This document shows positions 54,870 through 62,768 of a stretch of DNA of 64,000 nucleotides, one piece after another. The notes beneath the pieces are model-generated. The model made no database searches and was not told where the DNA came from. It saw only the letters and a program-made list of their open reading frames with translations. The position numbers and the translations under genes are program-made. The DNA comes from an uncultured Schlesneria sp. (GTDB lineage Bacteria > Planctomycetota > Planctomycetia > Planctomycetales > Planctomycetaceae). Where the stretch lies: contig CAIQIR010000055.1 in NCBI GenBank assembly GCA_903871875.1, positions 1-64,000 on the forward strand, given 5' to 3'. Each line of letters opens with the position of its first letter. The first letter of the stretch is position 1.

Positions 54870-57800
54870 TCAAGAATAAGGATTGTCACCGCGATTCAGT
54901 CGTCGACCCGGGATGCCTGTCCATGAGGTATTGGCAGGAAGCGTTTCACCCTTCATGACAAGTGAGAGATCCCCGACGGATGCATCTGACCCCAATTCAC
55001 TGTCATAAAGAACCAGCGACATCGCGCCGAGACTGCATCCGTCGCCGACTTTGATCGCCGACATCTTCATGACCCGGTCTTCAAACAGATGCGTCTGAAG
55101 TGTGCAGTCGAGATTGATGGCGACATCGTTTCCGATCTGGACGAGATCGAACTCCGTGAGTTCGGTGGTGTCCAGATAGACCCTCTTGCCAATTTTGGCT
55201 CCCAAAAGACGGAAGAACCAACAAATGTGCGGTGTACCGGCGAGCAAATCGAGAAAAAATGGCGAGGCAAAATTGTCGAGCAGTGATGTGACAACTTCCG
55301 TCCGCCACACGAAGGGACTCCAGAGGGGACGCTCGCAAGGGCGATAACGGCCGATCAGAACCCATTTGAAACCGACCATCACCAGCGCCGCCGCGTTTCC
55401 GGTAATCACATACAGCAACGGAAACAGCACGACGATCTGCCAAAGTGGCATCGCGTCCCGCATCAACAAAATTGCGGACAACAATACGTTGGTGAATATG
55501 ATGAATAACGTGGACGGCAGTGTGATCCGAAAGAATTCAATCAATAACCGTTGAGCTACTAACCACGAGGTGGGACGAAACGTTTCTTCCTCAGTGAATT
55601 CAGTACTCGTTTGCCGTTGCGGCAGGAAGAAAGAGGGGGAGCCAAGCCACGACGAACCATCGGCCATGTCCGTCGTTGGCGGAACGGAAAGACATCCGAT
55701 CAAACTGTTATTCGGAATCGTCGCACCAATCGGAACCAGTGCACTATTGCCAATAAATGTCCGTTGGCCAATGTACGTATTGTCGATCGTCATGGTGCCA
55801 TTTTGCACGCGGGCCGCTCCCAGCGACACTGCGTCAGCGACGAAACTTTCATCGCCCACGTAAAGACAATCGGGCGAGACAAACGAAGCGGTTGAGATCT
55901 CGGTTCGACGACCGATCTTCGCTCCCAGCAAGCGATACCAGGGGGCCAGATAGAGTGTCGAGTAGAGCGGGCCGATCACATCCAGACTGAGATGCAACAA
56001 ACGATCGACAAACCATTTCCGAAAATAGAAGCTGTGATGCAGGGGGTACGTACCAGGACGGACCCGCCCTAGCAATAGCCACTTCACCGCGACAATCTCA
56101 CAGCTGATCAGAAAAACAAACGATGTGGCAACAAACGGTGCAAGGACCAGATAAGAGTAATGCTCATCGAGATAGTTCAAATGAGCCATCACAACCATGC
56201 CGGGGAAAAAAGCAACCATGGGCAACAGAGGAAAAACCAGGATGCCAGCAACATACAGCCAACCATACGCGAAGCGACGCCAGAACGAGGGCTTCGCCAC
56301 CGTTGGTGACGGCGACCAGTCGGCGGGCTTTTCAACGGGCCGCGCTGGCGAACCTTTCCAGGATTGACCGGTTGGAATTGTGTCATCAGAGCACAGCAGG
56401 GAAAGGTCGTCCAGTTCCGAATCGTCCGACATTCGCGCACCTGGCCGTAGCACGGTGCGCGTTCCCACATAACATCGCTGGCCAATTTCGATCGGTCCGA
56501 GAATTAGCCAACCGTTTTCCACCGTCGCACAGGTGAAGTGCGAATCGGCTCCTAAACAGGTGTCGTCACCGATTGTTAATAAATCGTAGGCCTGCCCACC
56601 ATCATTCCCGAGATAGACGTTGGATCCAATCCGCGATCCCATCAGACGATAATAACAAGTCAGCAGCGGAGTTCCGGTCAAATAACTGGTGGGCACGATA
56701 TTGCGAATCGCCTGGACGAACCACCAACGAAGAAAATAGGTTCCCCACAGGGGGTATCGCCCCGGTTTGATGCGGCCAATCACAACCCATTTCACGACAA
56801 TCGAGAACGCCAACATGACGGGATAGAGCACGATGAGTGTTGCCAGCGATAGCAAGACCGCTTCAAAACCGGGATATCCGTCATCGAGTAGAAAGGTATA
56901 GGTCAGGTACGGCGCCAGCCACTGCAACGAGAAAAAGCCGACGATGAAGTACAGCCCCACCGTTTGGACAACCGAGCACCAGGCGTGTCGCCGCGAAGAT
57001 TTTCGCTGCTTTTCATCATTTACCGGAACATTCGTTGTGGCCTCAGCCGATGTCGGGGCACCATGCCGGACGCGCAGGACCGTTGCCAATTGTGCGATCG
57101 TCGGATGCTGATAAACGTCAAGCATCGAGATGTCTGCAAATTCGGGAAATCGCCGTAATGACGACACCATCCTCGCGGCCAGTAAGGAATGTCCACCCAG
57201 ATCCATGAAGAAGTCCTCATCTGGACCGATCGTGCTCGACGAAAAGACCTCACTCCAGGTCAGCGACAATTGCCGCTCGAAATTATTCTGGGGGATCCAG
57301 TCGTTTGCGGCGTCACGGGTTGGCCTGATCGCTCGAGAGCGAGGAGCAGGCAATTGCTTGCGGTTGACTTTGCCGCTGGTCAATGTGGGCAATGATTCGA
57401 TCGATTCGAACAGCGATGGAATCATGTAAACCGGCAGTGTCTCTCGAAGGTGGTGGCGCAACTGGTCTTCGTCAAATTCTTCAGCCGTTCGAGAGACCAG
57501 GTAGGCAATTAACTGCTGGACGCCGAGTGCATCTTCTCGTACCGTAACTGCGGCGGCGCGAACGCCTGGGCATCGCAGTAGTTCCGATTCAATCTCGGAA
57601 AGTTCAATGCGAAATCCTCGCAATTTGATCTGGCCGTCGGCTCGCCCGAGAAACTCCAACTGTCCGCCAACTGTCCAGCGTGCCAGATCCCCGGTCCGGT
57701 ACAGCCGGCGAGATTGCTCACCCGAAGCGAAAGTGGAGTTGAAAACGAAACGCTCTCGCGTCAAGTCGTCTCGTCCGACATACCCGCGCGCAAGACCAGC

Positions 57801-58883
57801 CCCACCGAGATAGAGTTCACCCGTTTCACCAGATGGCAACTCGTGGCCTTCTGCGTCCATTACGAAAGCGGAATAGCCGGGCAACGGTTCACCGATTGTC
57901 ACCGGTTTTGCTCGATCGCATTCGGTCCAGGTCGCAATGACCGTCGCTTCCGTTGGGCCATAAGTGTTGAACATCCGCCGGCCCGGCACACACCATCGAG
58001 CAACAAGGTCGGGTGAACAGGCTTCACCACCCACAATCAAAATACGGACGGTGGGTAATTCCCCTTCCATCATCGCGAGAAGTGTCGGAACGCACGAAAG
58101 AATCGTGATACCCAATTCGGTCAATTGACGGGGCAGGTCTGGCCCAGCGTGGACCATTTCGGAGGTTGCCGCCACAAGCGTCGCACCGCCGCACCAGGCC
58201 AACCACAACTCTTCAACCGACGCGTCAAACGCGATCGAGAATCCCTGGTAGACGCGATCATCGGGCCGAATTGCGAAACGCGCCGCTTCGGTGCGGGCCA
58301 GATGAACGGCATTACGGTGCTCGATTTGCACGCCCTTTGGCTTGCCGGTCGAGCCAGATGTATAAATGACGTAACAGAGATTTTCCGGTGTCGATTCGAT
58401 TCCACCGTCAGGCAAACGATCTGGTAATTGCAAAGCGATCGTTGGCCAATCGTTGTCGATGAAAACGACTTGCCCATCAAAGCCGGCCAGCTGATCCGCA
58501 TACTCAAGTGTCGAGATCACGATTCTGCTGCCAGAATCTGACAGAATATAAGTGACGCGATCCGTCGGGTATTCGGCATCGAGTGGAACATACGCGCCGC
58601 CCGCTTTCAGAATCCCCATCAAGGCCACATAAACATCTGCGGAACGTGGTAGCCAAAAGGCAACGCTCGCTTCAGGACCGACACCCAGCGAGCGAAGGTA
58701 TCGCGCCAGTTGATTCGCGGCCTCGTCCAAGGCGAGGTAGGTCATTCGGAATGAGCCACATTCGACGGCAATACTCTCTGGATGAAGGTCGACCTGAGCT
58801 TCGAACAGATGTTGTAATTGTGGGACGCGTTGCAATCCCCGTTCGTTGAGTGACGAACGGGACACTTCGAGAGCGACAGGCAT
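54870..58883 (-). CDS. Pls/PosA-family nonribosomal peptide synthetase
   Basis: A 1337-residue enzyme: adenylation domain (about 20-510), carrier domain (about 535-605, phosphopantetheine Ser566 in LGGHSL), then three blocks each of membrane segments and a left-handed beta-helix acyltransferase-like domain. This is the layout of epsilon-poly-L-lysine synthetase (A-T-TM-C repeated), about the same length. Core A motifs are intact: YTSGSTGKPKG, NTYGPTEATV, YRTGDLARW, and SGKVNRK. A hand-aligned specificity code gives D-A-E-S-I-G-T-V-I-K, close to the published Lys code as I recall it. There is no condensation or thioesterase domain; the tandem C-domains would join monomers. ATG at 58883 is seven bases after AGGAAGG. 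Confidence 0.88.
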   Translation of the reverse strand: MPVALEVSRSSLNERGLQRVPQLQHLFEAQVDLHPESIAVECGSFRMTYLALDEAANQLARYLRSLGVGPEASVAFWLPRSADVYVALMGILKAGGAYVPLDAEYPTDRVTYILSDSGSRIVISTLEYADQLAGFDGQVVFIDNDWPTIALQLPDRLPDGGIESTPENLCYVIYTSGSTGKPKGVQIEHRNAVHLARTEAARFAIRPDDRVYQGFSIAFDASVEELWLAWCGGATLVAATSEMVHAGPDLPRQLTELGITILSCVPTLLAMMEGELPTVRILIVGGEACSPDLVARWCVPGRRMFNTYGPTEATVIATWTECDRAKPVTIGEPLPGYSAFVMDAEGHELPSGETGELYLGGAGLARGYVGRDDLTRERFVFNSTFASGEQSRRLYRTGDLARWTVGGQLEFLGRADGQIKLRGFRIELSEIESELLRCPGVRAAAVTVREDALGVQQLIAYLVSRTAEEFDEDQLRHHLRETLPVYMIPSLFESIESLPTLTSGKVNRKQLPAPRSRAIRPTRDAANDWIPQNNFERQLSLTWSEVFSSSTIGPDEDFFMDLGGHSLLAARMVSSLRRFPEFADISMLDVYQHPTIAQLATVLRVRHGAPTSAEATTNVPVNDEKQRKSSRRHAWCSVVQTVGLYFIVGFFSLQWLAPYLTYTFLLDDGYPGFEAVLLSLATLIVLYPVMLAFSIVVKWVVIGRIKPGRYPLWGTYFLRWWFVQAIRNIVPTSYLTGTPLLTCYYRLMGSRIGSNVYLGNDGGQAYDLLTIGDDTCLGADSHFTCATVENGWLILGPIEIGQRCYVGTRTVLRPGARMSDDSELDDLSLLCSDDTIPTGQSWKGSPARPVEKPADWSPSPTVAKPSFWRRFAYGWLYVAGILVFPLLPMVAFFPGMVVMAHLNYLDEHYSYLVLAPFVATSFVFLISCEIVAVKWLLLGRVRPGTYPLHHSFYFRKWFVDRLLHLSLDVIGPLYSTLYLAPWYRLLGAKIGRRTEISTASFVSPDCLYVGDESFVADAVSLGAARVQNGTMTIDNTYIGQRTFIGNSALVPIGATIPNNSLIGCLSVPPTTDMADGSSWLGSPSFFLPQRQTSTEFTEEETFRPTSWLVAQRLLIEFFRITLPSTLFIIFTNVLLSAILLMRDAMPLWQIVVLFPLLYVITGNAAALVMVGFKWVLIGRYRPCERPLWSPFVWRTEVVTSLLDNFASPFFLDLLAGTPHICWFFRLLGAKIGKRVYLDTTELTEFDLVQIGNDVAINLDCTLQTHLFEDRVMKMSAIKVGDGCSLGAMSLVLYDSELGSDASVGDLSLVMKGETLPANTSWTGIPGRRLNRGDNPYS

Positions 58884-59658: not shown

Positions 59659-59729
59659 TGAAAATGGATTCTTCATGCCATCTGCCAGGCTTTGGCAGTT
59701 TTTTTGACTCTGGAAATCGAGGAGTGTGC

Positions 59730-62700
59730 ATGATGCACCAGTCCAATGGAATGACTTCGTCCGGATCCACCACGGCCACGACGACTGCTCCCGGCGGTCA
59801 GGGTCTGTCAGGGCGACAACTGCCCGAGACGCGTGCCATGTCGGTTCCCCCCCGTTTCTGTCCCGCCGATACTGATCCGTTCGCCACAGTCGAATGGGAT
59901 TACCGTACTGCCGCCATTAAAGATGAAAATGGAAAGGTTCTGTTCGAGCAAACCAATTGCGAGATTCCAGCCTCTTGGAGCCCATTGGCGACTAACGTCG
60001 TGGTCTCGAAGTATTTCTACGGCGAGCATGGAACACCTGAACGGGAGACCAGTGTAAAACAGGTCATCCACCGAGTTGCCCGTACAATCGCAGACTGGGG
60101 TATTGCCGGAGGCTACTTTGCCAGCCGTGAGGACGGTGAGAATTTTTACCGTGACCTGGCTTGGATGTGCCTGCATCAGTATGGCTCGTTCAATTCCCCG
60201 GTGTGGTTCAACGTCGGGCTGTATCACCAATACGGAGTGAAGGGTGCCCGCGGCAACTACCACTTCAATCCTGCGACGCAGGAAATTGAGCGGCCCGCGA
60301 CGTCATACGAGCTTCCGCAAGCGTCGGCCTGCTTTATTCAGGCAGTCGATGACAACATGGAAGACATCATGCGTCTGGCGACCAGCGAGGCGATGCTGTT
60401 CAAGTTCGGTTCGGGCACCGGTACCGACCTCTCAACGATTCGGGGATCGAAAGAAAAACTGTCGGGCGGCGGAACCCCCTCTGGCCCGCTGTCGTTTATG
60501 CGAGTTTACGATCAAATTGCCGCTGTGGTGAAATCGGGTGGTAAGACCCGCCGGGCTGCGAAGATGCAGTCTCTTAAAGACTGGCATCCCGATATTCTGG
60601 AATTCATCCAGTGCAAGAACAAAGAAGAAAAGAAAGCTCGAGTTCTGATCGACAGTGGTGAATACGATGCCAACTTCAATGGCGAAGCGTATTCATCAAT
60701 CATGTTCCAGAACGCCAATCTTTCTGTTCGTTTGAGCGACGAGTTCATGCGAGCTGTTGAGGAAGGCAAGAAGTGGAAAACACGCTGGGTTACCGACCCC
60801 TCCAAGAATGGCCCCGAATACGACGCTAAATACGTGCTTCGCCAAATGGCCGAGGGAGCCTGGGCCTGCGGTGATCCGGGTGTTCAGTACGACACCACGA
60901 TCAACAAATGGCACACCTGTCCAAATTCGGGCCGCATCAATGCATCGAACCCGTGCTCGGAATACATGTTCCTAGATGACACGGCTTGTAACCTGTCGAG
61001 CCTTAACCTTCGCAAGTTCCAGCGACCCGAGGGCGGTTTCGACGTCGAACGATTCCGGTCAGCAGCGTCTGTTTTTATCACGGCACAAGAGATTCTGGTC
61101 GACAACGCCAGCTATCCAACTCCCGCGATCGCCAAGAACAGCCACCTGTACCGACCGCTCGGTTTGGGCTACGCCAATCTCGGTAGTTTGTTGATGTCGA
61201 TGGGGATTCCCTACGATAGCGACGCCGGTCGTGGGATCGCCGGAGCGATTACGGCCCTGCTCACCGGTCAAGGTTATCTGACATCCAGCCGCATCGCCGG
61301 ATACCTAGGCCCGTTCGCCGGGTATAAAGAAAACGCCGAACCGATGTTGCGCGTGATGCGTATGCACCGAGATGCGGTAGACCGTATTGATGCGACATGC
61401 CCAGAATATCTTCGCAACGCCGCCGGCAAGGTCTGGGACGAATGCGTGGATTCAGGGCGACAGTATGGTTATCGCAACGCTCAGGCTACGGTGTTGGCAC
61501 CGACCGGAACCATTGCCTTCATGATGGATTGCGACACAACGGGTATCGAACCCGATATCGCTCTCGTCAAATACAAGCAATTGGCCGGAGGTGGCATGAT
61601 GAAGATCGTGAATCGCACGGTTCCACTGGCGCTCAAGACGCTCGGCTATGACTCGCCGGAAATCGAACGGATCGTCAAGCACATTGAAGATTCGGAAACG
61701 ATCGAAGGTGCTGCTGATTTGAAGGCCGACCATGTCAGTGTCTTCGATTGTGCATTCAAGGCCAATAATGGCACGCGAACGATCCACTGGAAAGCACACA
61801 TCAAGATGATGGCAGCCGCCCAGCCGTTCTTGTCGGGGGCGATTTCGAAGACCGTGAATATGCCCACGGACAGTACGGCCGACGACATTGAAAAGGCCTA
61901 TTTTGAAGGCTGGCGTCTCGGCCTGAAAGCTCTCGCAATCTACCGCGACGGCTCCAAGCAAAGTCAGCCGTTGTCAACGACGAAAGAAGGCGATCGCAAG
62001 AAGGGCGGATCCGGCGGCGACCGACCGGCTCGCCGACGTCTCCCACCGACTCGCAATTCGCTGACGCATAAGTTCTCGGTGGGTGGCCATGAAGGCTATA
62101 TCACGGTGGGTTTGTTCGAAGACGGCACGCCCGGCGAATTGTTCATCAGCATGGCAAAGGAAGGCAGCACCATCGGTGGGCTGATGGACGTCATCGGCAC
62201 CGAAACCTCGATGGGCCTGCAATATGGGGTGCCACTCGAAGTTCTGGTGGAAAAGTTCTCGCACTCGCGATTTGAACCGAGTGGTTGGACGCCAAATCCT
62301 GAAATTCCGAATGCCAAAAGTGTGGTGGACTACATCTTCCGCTGGCTCGGCATTCAGTTCCTTCCCGGTTTCCGCGAAGCCAATGCACCGAAGCGTGCAG
62401 AGACTTCGGTATTCGGCGATAGTGAGGACGCCGGCGAAAGTCATCGTCTGGCCGAAGTCGCTTTGATCAAGGCTATGCCTGCGACTTCGGCCCCCTCGAC
62501 GAACGGCCAGACCAATAATGGGAACGGCACCAATGGTCACCATGGCTCGAACGGGAAAACACCCACAGTGATCGCTCAGCGAATGACGTCATCACTGAAA
62601 GTACTGCAGACGACAGTCACTTCATTGGAAGCGACGGCAACCCGTAACCAACAGTTTGCCAAGTTCCAATCAGATGCCCCCAGTTGCAGCAACTGTGGAG

Positions 62701-62768
62701 CAATTACCGTTCGCAACGGCAACTGTTACTTGTGCCACAACTGTGGAACCAGTCACGGCTGCAGTTAG
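59730..62768 (+). CDS. nrdJ: Cobalamin-dependent (class II) ribonucleotide reductase
   Basis: A 1012-residue enzyme that reduces ribonucleotides to deoxyribonucleotides using adenosylcobalamin. Residues about 45-700 hold the alpha-barrel core: Cys201 in SACFIQA, the active-site motif NPCSE (Asn407, Cys409, Glu411) and a Cys420 in TACNLSSLNL. A Ser/Thr-rich N-terminus and a Gly/Asn-rich linker flank it, and the C-terminus has a Cys-rich end (CSNCG and CHNCG, about 986-1012) for zinc and reduction of the active-site disulfide. The ATG at 59730 is five bases after GAGGAG, unlike an upstream in-frame ATG at 59664 without one. It replaces or adds to a class I enzyme. Confidence 0.94.
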   Translation: MMHQSNGMTSSGSTTATTTAPGGQGLSGRQLPETRAMSVPPRFCPADTDPFATVEWDYRTAAIKDENGKVLFEQTNCEIPASWSPLATNVVVSKYFYGEHGTPERETSVKQVIHRVARTIADWGIAGGYFASREDGENFYRDLAWMCLHQYGSFNSPVWFNVGLYHQYGVKGARGNYHFNPATQEIERPATSYELPQASACFIQAVDDNMEDIMRLATSEAMLFKFGSGTGTDLSTIRGSKEKLSGGGTPSGPLSFMRVYDQIAAVVKSGGKTRRAAKMQSLKDWHPDILEFIQCKNKEEKKARVLIDSGEYDANFNGEAYSSIMFQNANLSVRLSDEFMRAVEEGKKWKTRWVTDPSKNGPEYDAKYVLRQMAEGAWACGDPGVQYDTTINKWHTCPNSGRINASNPCSEYMFLDDTACNLSSLNLRKFQRPEGGFDVERFRSAASVFITAQEILVDNASYPTPAIAKNSHLYRPLGLGYANLGSLLMSMGIPYDSDAGRGIAGAITALLTGQGYLTSSRIAGYLGPFAGYKENAEPMLRVMRMHRDAVDRIDATCPEYLRNAAGKVWDECVDSGRQYGYRNAQATVLAPTGTIAFMMDCDTTGIEPDIALVKYKQLAGGGMMKIVNRTVPLALKTLGYDSPEIERIVKHIEDSETIEGAADLKADHVSVFDCAFKANNGTRTIHWKAHIKMMAAAQPFLSGAISKTVNMPTDSTADDIEKAYFEGWRLGLKALAIYRDGSKQSQPLSTTKEGDRKKGGSGGDRPARRRLPPTRNSLTHKFSVGGHEGYITVGLFEDGTPGELFISMAKEGSTIGGLMDVIGTETSMGLQYGVPLEVLVEKFSHSRFEPSGWTPNPEIPNAKSVVDYIFRWLGIQFLPGFREANAPKRAETSVFGDSEDAGESHRLAEVALIKAMPATSAPSTNGQTNNGNGTNGHHGSNGKTPTVIAQRMTSSLKVLQTTVTSLEATATRNQQFAKFQSDAPSCSNCGAITVRNGNCYLCHNCGTSHGCS

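Follow-up and report, generated by a model that had tools for sequence, protein, structure and literature searches.

A probable epsilon-poly-L-lysine synthetase of the Pls/PosA family in an uncultured planctomycete of the genus Schlesneria

Does a planctomycete make a homopolymer of lysine, and with what kind of enzyme? The question is raised by a gene in a stretch of 64,000 nucleotides from an uncultured Schlesneria sp. (assembly GCA_903871875.1, contig CAIQIR010000055.1, positions 1 to 64,000), the whole of which is hereafter called the window. A preliminary description of the window had placed a Pls/PosA-type synthetase with a lysine-like adenylation-domain code at 54870..58883. These coordinates are correct, and the strand, which had been left unstated, was found by translation to be the minus strand. 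The frame runs from a start ATG at 58883 to a stop at 54870 and encodes 1337 amino acids (P0001) with zero internal stops; on the plus strand of 54870-58883 stops are numerous. The product is likely to be a membrane-bound, lysine-activating epsilon-poly-L-lysine synthetase, and it is credible that the planctomycete is a new source of a compound of known type and not the bearer of a new kind of system. The gene and its principal parts are as follows.

54870..58883, minus strand: homopoly(amino acid) synthetase of the Pls/PosA family, 1337 amino acids, uninterrupted frame, 678 bits to TIGR02353
58891..58897, minus strand: likely ribosome-binding site AGGAAGG, 7 bases upstream of the ATG, from the sequence
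57339..58817, minus strand: adenylation domain, residues 23-515, AlphaFold2 model with a predicted local distance difference test (pLDDT) score of 84.5
Residues 220, 221, 224, 263, 283, 285, 307, 315, 316 and 505: specificity code DAESIGTVIK, by alignment
57078..57254, minus strand: peptidyl carrier domain, residues 544-602, with the phosphopantetheine serine S566 in GGHS, from the PP-binding match
54909..56972, minus strand: nonribosomal peptide synthetase (NRPS) terminal domain, predicted to be polymerising and membrane-located, residues 638-1325, from the NCBIfam match

Membership of the family is carried by the NCBIfam model TIGR02353 (Pls/PosA, NRPS_term_dom), which matches residues 638-1325 with 678 bits against a curated cut-off of 423.1; the source genome holds five matches to this model and only this gene exceeds the cut-off. 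The Pfam and NCBIfam matches give the order adenylation (27-505), carrier (544-602) and terminal domain (638-1325), so that both the family and the domain order had been named rightly. Five Pfam families were reported for the protein, namely AMP-binding, AMP-binding_C, PP-binding and a pair of the hexapeptide type. Condensation and thioesterase families are absent from these five, in agreement with the earlier statement that a condensation domain and a releasing enzyme are lacking. The serine S566 is conserved in at least 97% of 97 family members, and two ACPS-family genes occur in the source genome, one of which, with a WTCKEA motif, looks like an Sfp-type phosphopantetheinyl transferase. The family, the intact architecture, the pocket residues, their conservation and the phosphopantetheinyl transferase gene are direct observations.

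The substrate was approached through the ten positions of the adenylation-domain code; residues were mapped onto gramicidin synthetase A and 34 positions were counted as the pocket, both following what we take to be accepted usage. A MAFFT alignment returned DAESIGTVIK, exactly the code that had earlier been read by hand. In a Bacillus paralicheniformis synthetase (L093) the same columns gave, in order, DAKDIGVVDK, DGFFLGVVYK, DAESIGSVCK and DVGEIGSVDK, which presumably correspond to the Glu, Ile, Lys and Orn modules expected of bacitracin synthetase. As a further control of the mapping, the columns gave DMEHNGTVSK for an Acinetobacter baumannii homologue (L034) taken as PosA, the code printed for that enzyme (PMC10522769). 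The lysine code that the preliminary description had quoted, DAESIGSVCK, is therefore real, and the alignment to lysine-activating references that it had proposed gives a match at 8 of 10 positions to this L093 domain, an ordinary multimodular synthetase and not a homopolymer synthetase. Streptomyces albulus Pls (PDB 7wew) is closer, its code DAESIGTVVK agreeing at 9 of 10 positions with a conservative Val to Ile at position 9 as the sole change; the same Pls code was found in 33 rows of actinobacterial relatives, from 32 separate loci, L057 and L137 being the same gene. Across the wider pocket 24 of the 34 positions are identical to 7wew.

How often such a resemblance arises by chance was gauged from 199 adenylation domains of 72 loci that had not been assigned to the family: agreement at nine or ten positions was seen in none, and four, including the L093 domain, agreed at eight. 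Within the genus the pocket is held far more strictly than its surroundings, being invariant at 34/34 positions in 10 congeneric proteins in which the remaining adenylation domain is invariant at 219/459. The code is identical in all 11 congeneric genes with a readable code, a count that leaves out two pieces without the code region (L025 of G004 and L024 of G014). Published structure-function work assigns binding of the alpha- and side-chain amines to the Asp at position 1 and the Glu at position 3, and the tuning of chain length to residue 2, with Phe for diaminopropionic acid (DAP) and diaminobutyric acid (DAB), Met for ornithine and Ala for lysine (PMC10522769). The window protein carries D220 and E224 at positions 1 and 3 and Ala at position 2. 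Pockets of the ornithine, DAB/DAP, beta-lysine and Bdellovibrionales types were also compared by code and fitted more poorly than lysine. The substrate prediction is unusually clear for this gene.

Several points weigh against the epsilon-poly-L-lysine reading. Position 9 is Ile, where Pls has Val and bacitracin synthetase has Cys; the adenylation domain is just 44% identical to 7wew; over its whole length the protein has 33-36% identity with the DAESIGTVVK enzymes of actinobacteria and stands elsewhere in the tree; and no gene for a pldII-type peptidase adjoins the synthetase among the window neighbours examined, whereas pls of Streptomyces and Corynebacterium has one (PMC8117764). PosA itself is cautionary, for the code nearest to its own was that of bacitracin synthetase's lysine domain, and still the enzyme prefers ornithine over lysine by more than 160-fold, and its M218A variant, with Ala at position 2, still favours ornithine (474 vs 27.6 M-1 s-1) (PMC10522769). 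Ala at position 2 is thus not decisive alone. This precedent supports the alternative that the gene encodes a family member which builds its homopolymer from another diamino acid, above all L-ornithine, with delta-poly-L-ornithine as product. Nor does overall similarity discriminate between Pls and PosA, the adenylation domain being nearly equally identical to 7wew (44%), to L034 (42%) and to another enzyme of the PosA code type (44%). The pocket speaks differently: seven PosA-type rows (DMEHNGTVSK or DMEHNGTVTK), of which PosA alone is characterised, have Met at position 2, His at position 4 and Asn at position 5; in the window protein the D-A-E-S-I-G-T-V run is that of Pls. With PosA it shares the family, the architecture and the Asp/Glu pair of the pocket, as well as a gene that stands alone (PMC10522769), and it differs in the code and in having only 37% identity. 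We regard another diamino acid as an unlikely substrate. The probabilities given here and below for the alternatives are not mutually exclusive.

A further candidate substrate is beta-lysine. A synthetase of another genus of the same planctomycete family (L209, G029:C228, 1954-8081) has the code DGESVSVVNK, which is nearly the one published for beta-lysine, DGESISVVNK (PMC10522769). A radical S-adenosylmethionine gene resembling lysine-2,3-aminomutase overlaps its start (203 bits, under the model cut-off of 525), and an AAT/C45 Ntn-hydrolase-like gene lies behind it; from code and context it is likely an epsilon-poly-beta-lysine locus. This synthetase is also a weakly supported neighbour of the window protein in the trees, which would favour an epsilon-poly-beta-lysine product for the latter too. 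However, positions 2, 6, 7 and 9 are A, G, T and I in the window protein against G, S, V and N, and an aminomutase was not found among the adjacent window genes examined, so that beta-lysine is the least probable of the substrates weighed and highly improbable in itself. The agreement of code with gene context seen here recurs in a Streptomyces enzyme with the code DFECLSAVTK, with Phe at position 2, which adjoins genes for DAB transaminase and aspartate kinase; together the two cases support the reading of substrates from codes. Comparison with 9 congeneric loci showed no neighbour in common with the window gene, as would suit a proteinogenic monomer, for which a dedicated precursor gene is not needed.

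Polymerisation would be the work of the terminal domain, for which the preliminary description had proposed three membrane/beta-helix blocks. Hydropathy, weak hexapeptide matches and an AlphaFold2 prediction agree with that layout, whose parts are listed below.

56778..56996, minus strand: helix pair 1, residues 630-702, predicted transmembrane (AlphaFold2 model, hydropathy)
56334..56579, minus strand: left-handed beta-helix block 1, residues about 769-850 (AlphaFold2 model, hexapeptide matches)
56073..56285, minus strand: helix pair 2, residues 867-937, predicted transmembrane (AlphaFold2 model, hydropathy)
55644..55889, minus strand: left-handed beta-helix block 2, residues about 999-1080, with D1017 and N1046 invariant (AlphaFold2 model, hexapeptide matches)
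55356..55568, minus strand: helix pair 3, residues 1106-1176, predicted transmembrane (AlphaFold2 model, hydropathy)
54918..55142, minus strand: left-handed beta-helix block 3, residues about 1248-1322 (AlphaFold2 model, hexapeptide matches)
55089..55097, minus strand: Q1263-T-H1265, a terminal-domain motif that is a candidate for catalysis, from conservation

The AlphaFold2 model, based on ten sequences (pLDDT 82.0, predicted template-modelling score 0.86), has six long helices in three pairs with a left-handed beta-helix after each pair, and a published model of PosA agrees with this layout (PMC10522769). Sequence matches to solved structures fall in three separate weak hexapeptide or beta-helix regions, with best E values of about 2e-6 (block 1), 5e-4 (block 2) and 0.03 (block 3). 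A sequence search for a solved structure of this domain found none, its matches (E up to 1) being proteins of hexapeptide type together with a few unrelated chains that match weakly. Foldseek returned 365 matches at E up to 10, of which 20 were at 0.001 or better; the best 50 of the 365 are left-handed beta-helix proteins, among them acyltransferases and gamma-carbonic-anhydrase-like chains including complex I subunits, and their template-modelling (TM) scores of 0.08-0.16 by query length indicate that they cover single blocks only.

Conservation offers a pointer to function. W721, D1017, N1046, Q1263 and H1265 show no substitution among the 97 full-length members, gaps aside; Q1263 is present in 96/97 rows (1 gap) and H1265 in 95/97 (2 gaps), with alternative residues absent. 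As the invariant histidine sits in block 3, that block may hold the catalytic centre. Mutants of the three tandem domains have reportedly been studied (Kito 2013, referenced in PMC7179176).

On the lysine reading, the adenylation domain would convert L-lysine to lysyl-AMP and the lysyl group would be loaded on the phosphopantetheine of S566, attached by a transferase such as the Sfp-type-looking one of the genome. The terminal domain, its three helix-pair and beta-helix units in one chain, would then polymerise the lysines, joining side-chain amine to carboxyl by isopeptide bonds with neither a classical condensation domain nor a thioesterase domain. By analogy with characterised relatives we infer the lysine substrate, the isopeptide linkage, polymer formation, the membrane location and an antimicrobial or surface role. 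The same substrate would serve an alternative in which lysine is activated but short oligomers are made, or lysines are placed on an acceptor such as a lipid, a polyol or a cell-surface amine, and no free epsilon-poly-L-lysine results. The chains made by the family range in length from 7-12 units up to about 35, and Pls esterifies its product with polyols (PMC10522769, PMC7179176, PMC8117764, PMC9606270); the clade of the window protein, moreover, differs from that of the actinobacterial DAESIGTVVK enzymes. Retention of all the invariant residues of the terminal domain argues on the other side, and we hold this outcome to be possible but not favoured.

As to the distribution of the gene, all counts from genome searches are lower bounds because few first-look candidates, between 2 and 10, were scored per genome. 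The gene occurs in at least 12 of the 14 other genomes of the genus, in three of the 12 as fragments only, and was unmatched in the other two, one of which is a single-contig genome. Against four congeners the rate of nonsynonymous change (dN) is 0.17-0.26 and that of synonymous change (dS) is saturated, with a value of 7.3 for one pair and none computable for the other three, and the gene appears to be under purifying selection. A silent or decayed relic, inherited with no product, has a parallel in a C. variabile culture that gave no epsilon-poly-lysine, though its gene works in Streptomyces (PMC8117764); with the frame intact, the gene widely kept in the genus and dS saturated at the dN given, such a state is very improbable here.

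Outside the genus, full-length members were found in at least 1 of 22 other genomes of the family (G029) and at least 1 of 22 other genomes of the class (G047). In an even sample of the phylum (392 genomes, source genome included) at least 15 match TIGR02353 at E 1e-50 or better and at least two exceed its cut-off; eleven of the 15 have the code DSECYGGVTK, the source genome has DAESIGTVIK and three are too partial. At a protein-search E of 1e-150 the family was found in at least 51 of 150 genomes of the genus of Streptomyces atratus, at least 27 of 398 of the Caulobacter phylum and at least 2 of 194 of the Chamaesiphon phylum, and a profile scan of contigs, which is not a census of the family, gave at least 80 loci, ordinary adenylation domains among them. 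In a full-length tree of 50 rows (quick method, no bootstrap) the genus forms its own clade with a support of 100, apart from the actinobacterial DAESIGTVVK enzymes, and the lysine-coded groups are again separate in an adenylation-domain tree of 51 rows from which the code columns had been removed. An approximately unbiased (AU) test did not reject one clade of lysine-coded adenylation domains (p 0.395, or 0.439 with L198), so that the lysine pocket may have arisen once or more than once. The window protein shares with S. albulus Pls nine of the ten code residues and the domain order (for Pls as given in the literature) and differs in its clade and in the missing degrading peptidase; the terminal domains of the Pls-code relatives L057 and L146 are 31% identical to its own. 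In another phylum, the uncharacterised L198 (G1030:C434, Chamaesiphon/cyanobacterial phylum) has the same code DAESIGTVIK, 28 of 34 pocket residues and 43% overall identity.

Other planctomycetes carry enzymes of the same family with other pockets and predicted other polymers. The DGESVSVVNK synthetase (L027/L209) is of the published beta-lysine type, and those with DSECYGGVTK, present at eleven loci in as many genomes of the phylum sample (L038-L041, L043-L046, L048-L050), are of the Bdellovibrionales type, whose adenylation domain has modest arginine activity (PMC10522769). The sole recurrent neighbour found for the latter is a SET-domain gene, at three of 11 loci; genes were called there as longest open reading frames, a crude procedure where GC is high, and at 3 of the 11 loci the synthetase itself was missed. 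We lean towards the broader view that the genus makes epsilon-poly-L-lysine near-genus-wide by a non-actinobacterial lineage of synthetase and that the phylum has at least three chemotypes, namely lysine, beta-lysine (L209) and DSECYGGVTK.

How new this would be was put too strongly in the preliminary description, which had called a cationic homopolymer from a planctomycete new. The family, with members for lysine, ornithine, DAB, DAP and beta-lysine, and its spread across many phyla, fungi and archaea have been published (PMC10522769), and one predicted non-alpha poly-amino acid (NAPAA) cluster is tabulated for the planctomycete Singulisphaera acidiphila (PMC12402505). The string "planctomycet-" is absent from the main text of PMC10522769, and a literature search of limited full-text depth found no report of a planctomycete poly-lysine product or of a substrate assignment for a planctomycete member. 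The novelty is moderate, that of a known family in a new host lineage with its own lineage of enzyme. Epsilon-poly-L-lysine, an antimicrobial polymer and approved food preservative (PMC8117764), has been described from actinobacteria and fungi, with Bacillaceae named as producers (PMC7179176), and a separately placed planctomycete enzyme of lysine type would, if the reading is true, be a new source. Its Ile in place of Val at position 9 and its distant terminal domain would also provide a natural comparison for what governs the monomer chosen and the length of the chain. The biological role of such polymers is termed unclear (PMC9606270), and the pattern of presence in the genus, including the unmatched single-contig genome, offers a comparative test of it.

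The synthetase gene is flanked by genes for a beta-propeller protein and a class II (B12-dependent) ribonucleotide reductase, the latter at 59664-62768 of the window, divergent to the synthetase and about 780 bases away. The search of planctomycete genomes for the gene and its neighbours that had been proposed was rewarded for the gene and not for the neighbours: no conserved cluster is common to the window and the 9 loci of congeners, and a downstream set of LigD_N-like, TPR, oxidoreductase, permease and hydrolase genes, with no hint of a precursor pathway, is common to four close congeners only. Recent transfer was considered and set aside, since the guanine-plus-cytosine (GC) content of the gene (54.5%, window 54.0%) and that of its third codon positions (GC3; 59.2%, six neighbours 56.3-67.3%) match the surroundings and a compositional sign of such a transfer is absent. 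The source genome has 65 PSCyt2 domains, which we take to be a planctomycete marker; in 14 control genomes no domain of this kind exceeded the cut-off.

Two further family members were noted in passing. The Pls lysine code DAESIGTVVK occurs outside Streptomyces in Nocardioides sp. 1609 (L057/L137), and a locus of the Caulobacter phylum (L173, G746:C14) has a full-length open frame with the unusual pocket DVEANGTGSK.

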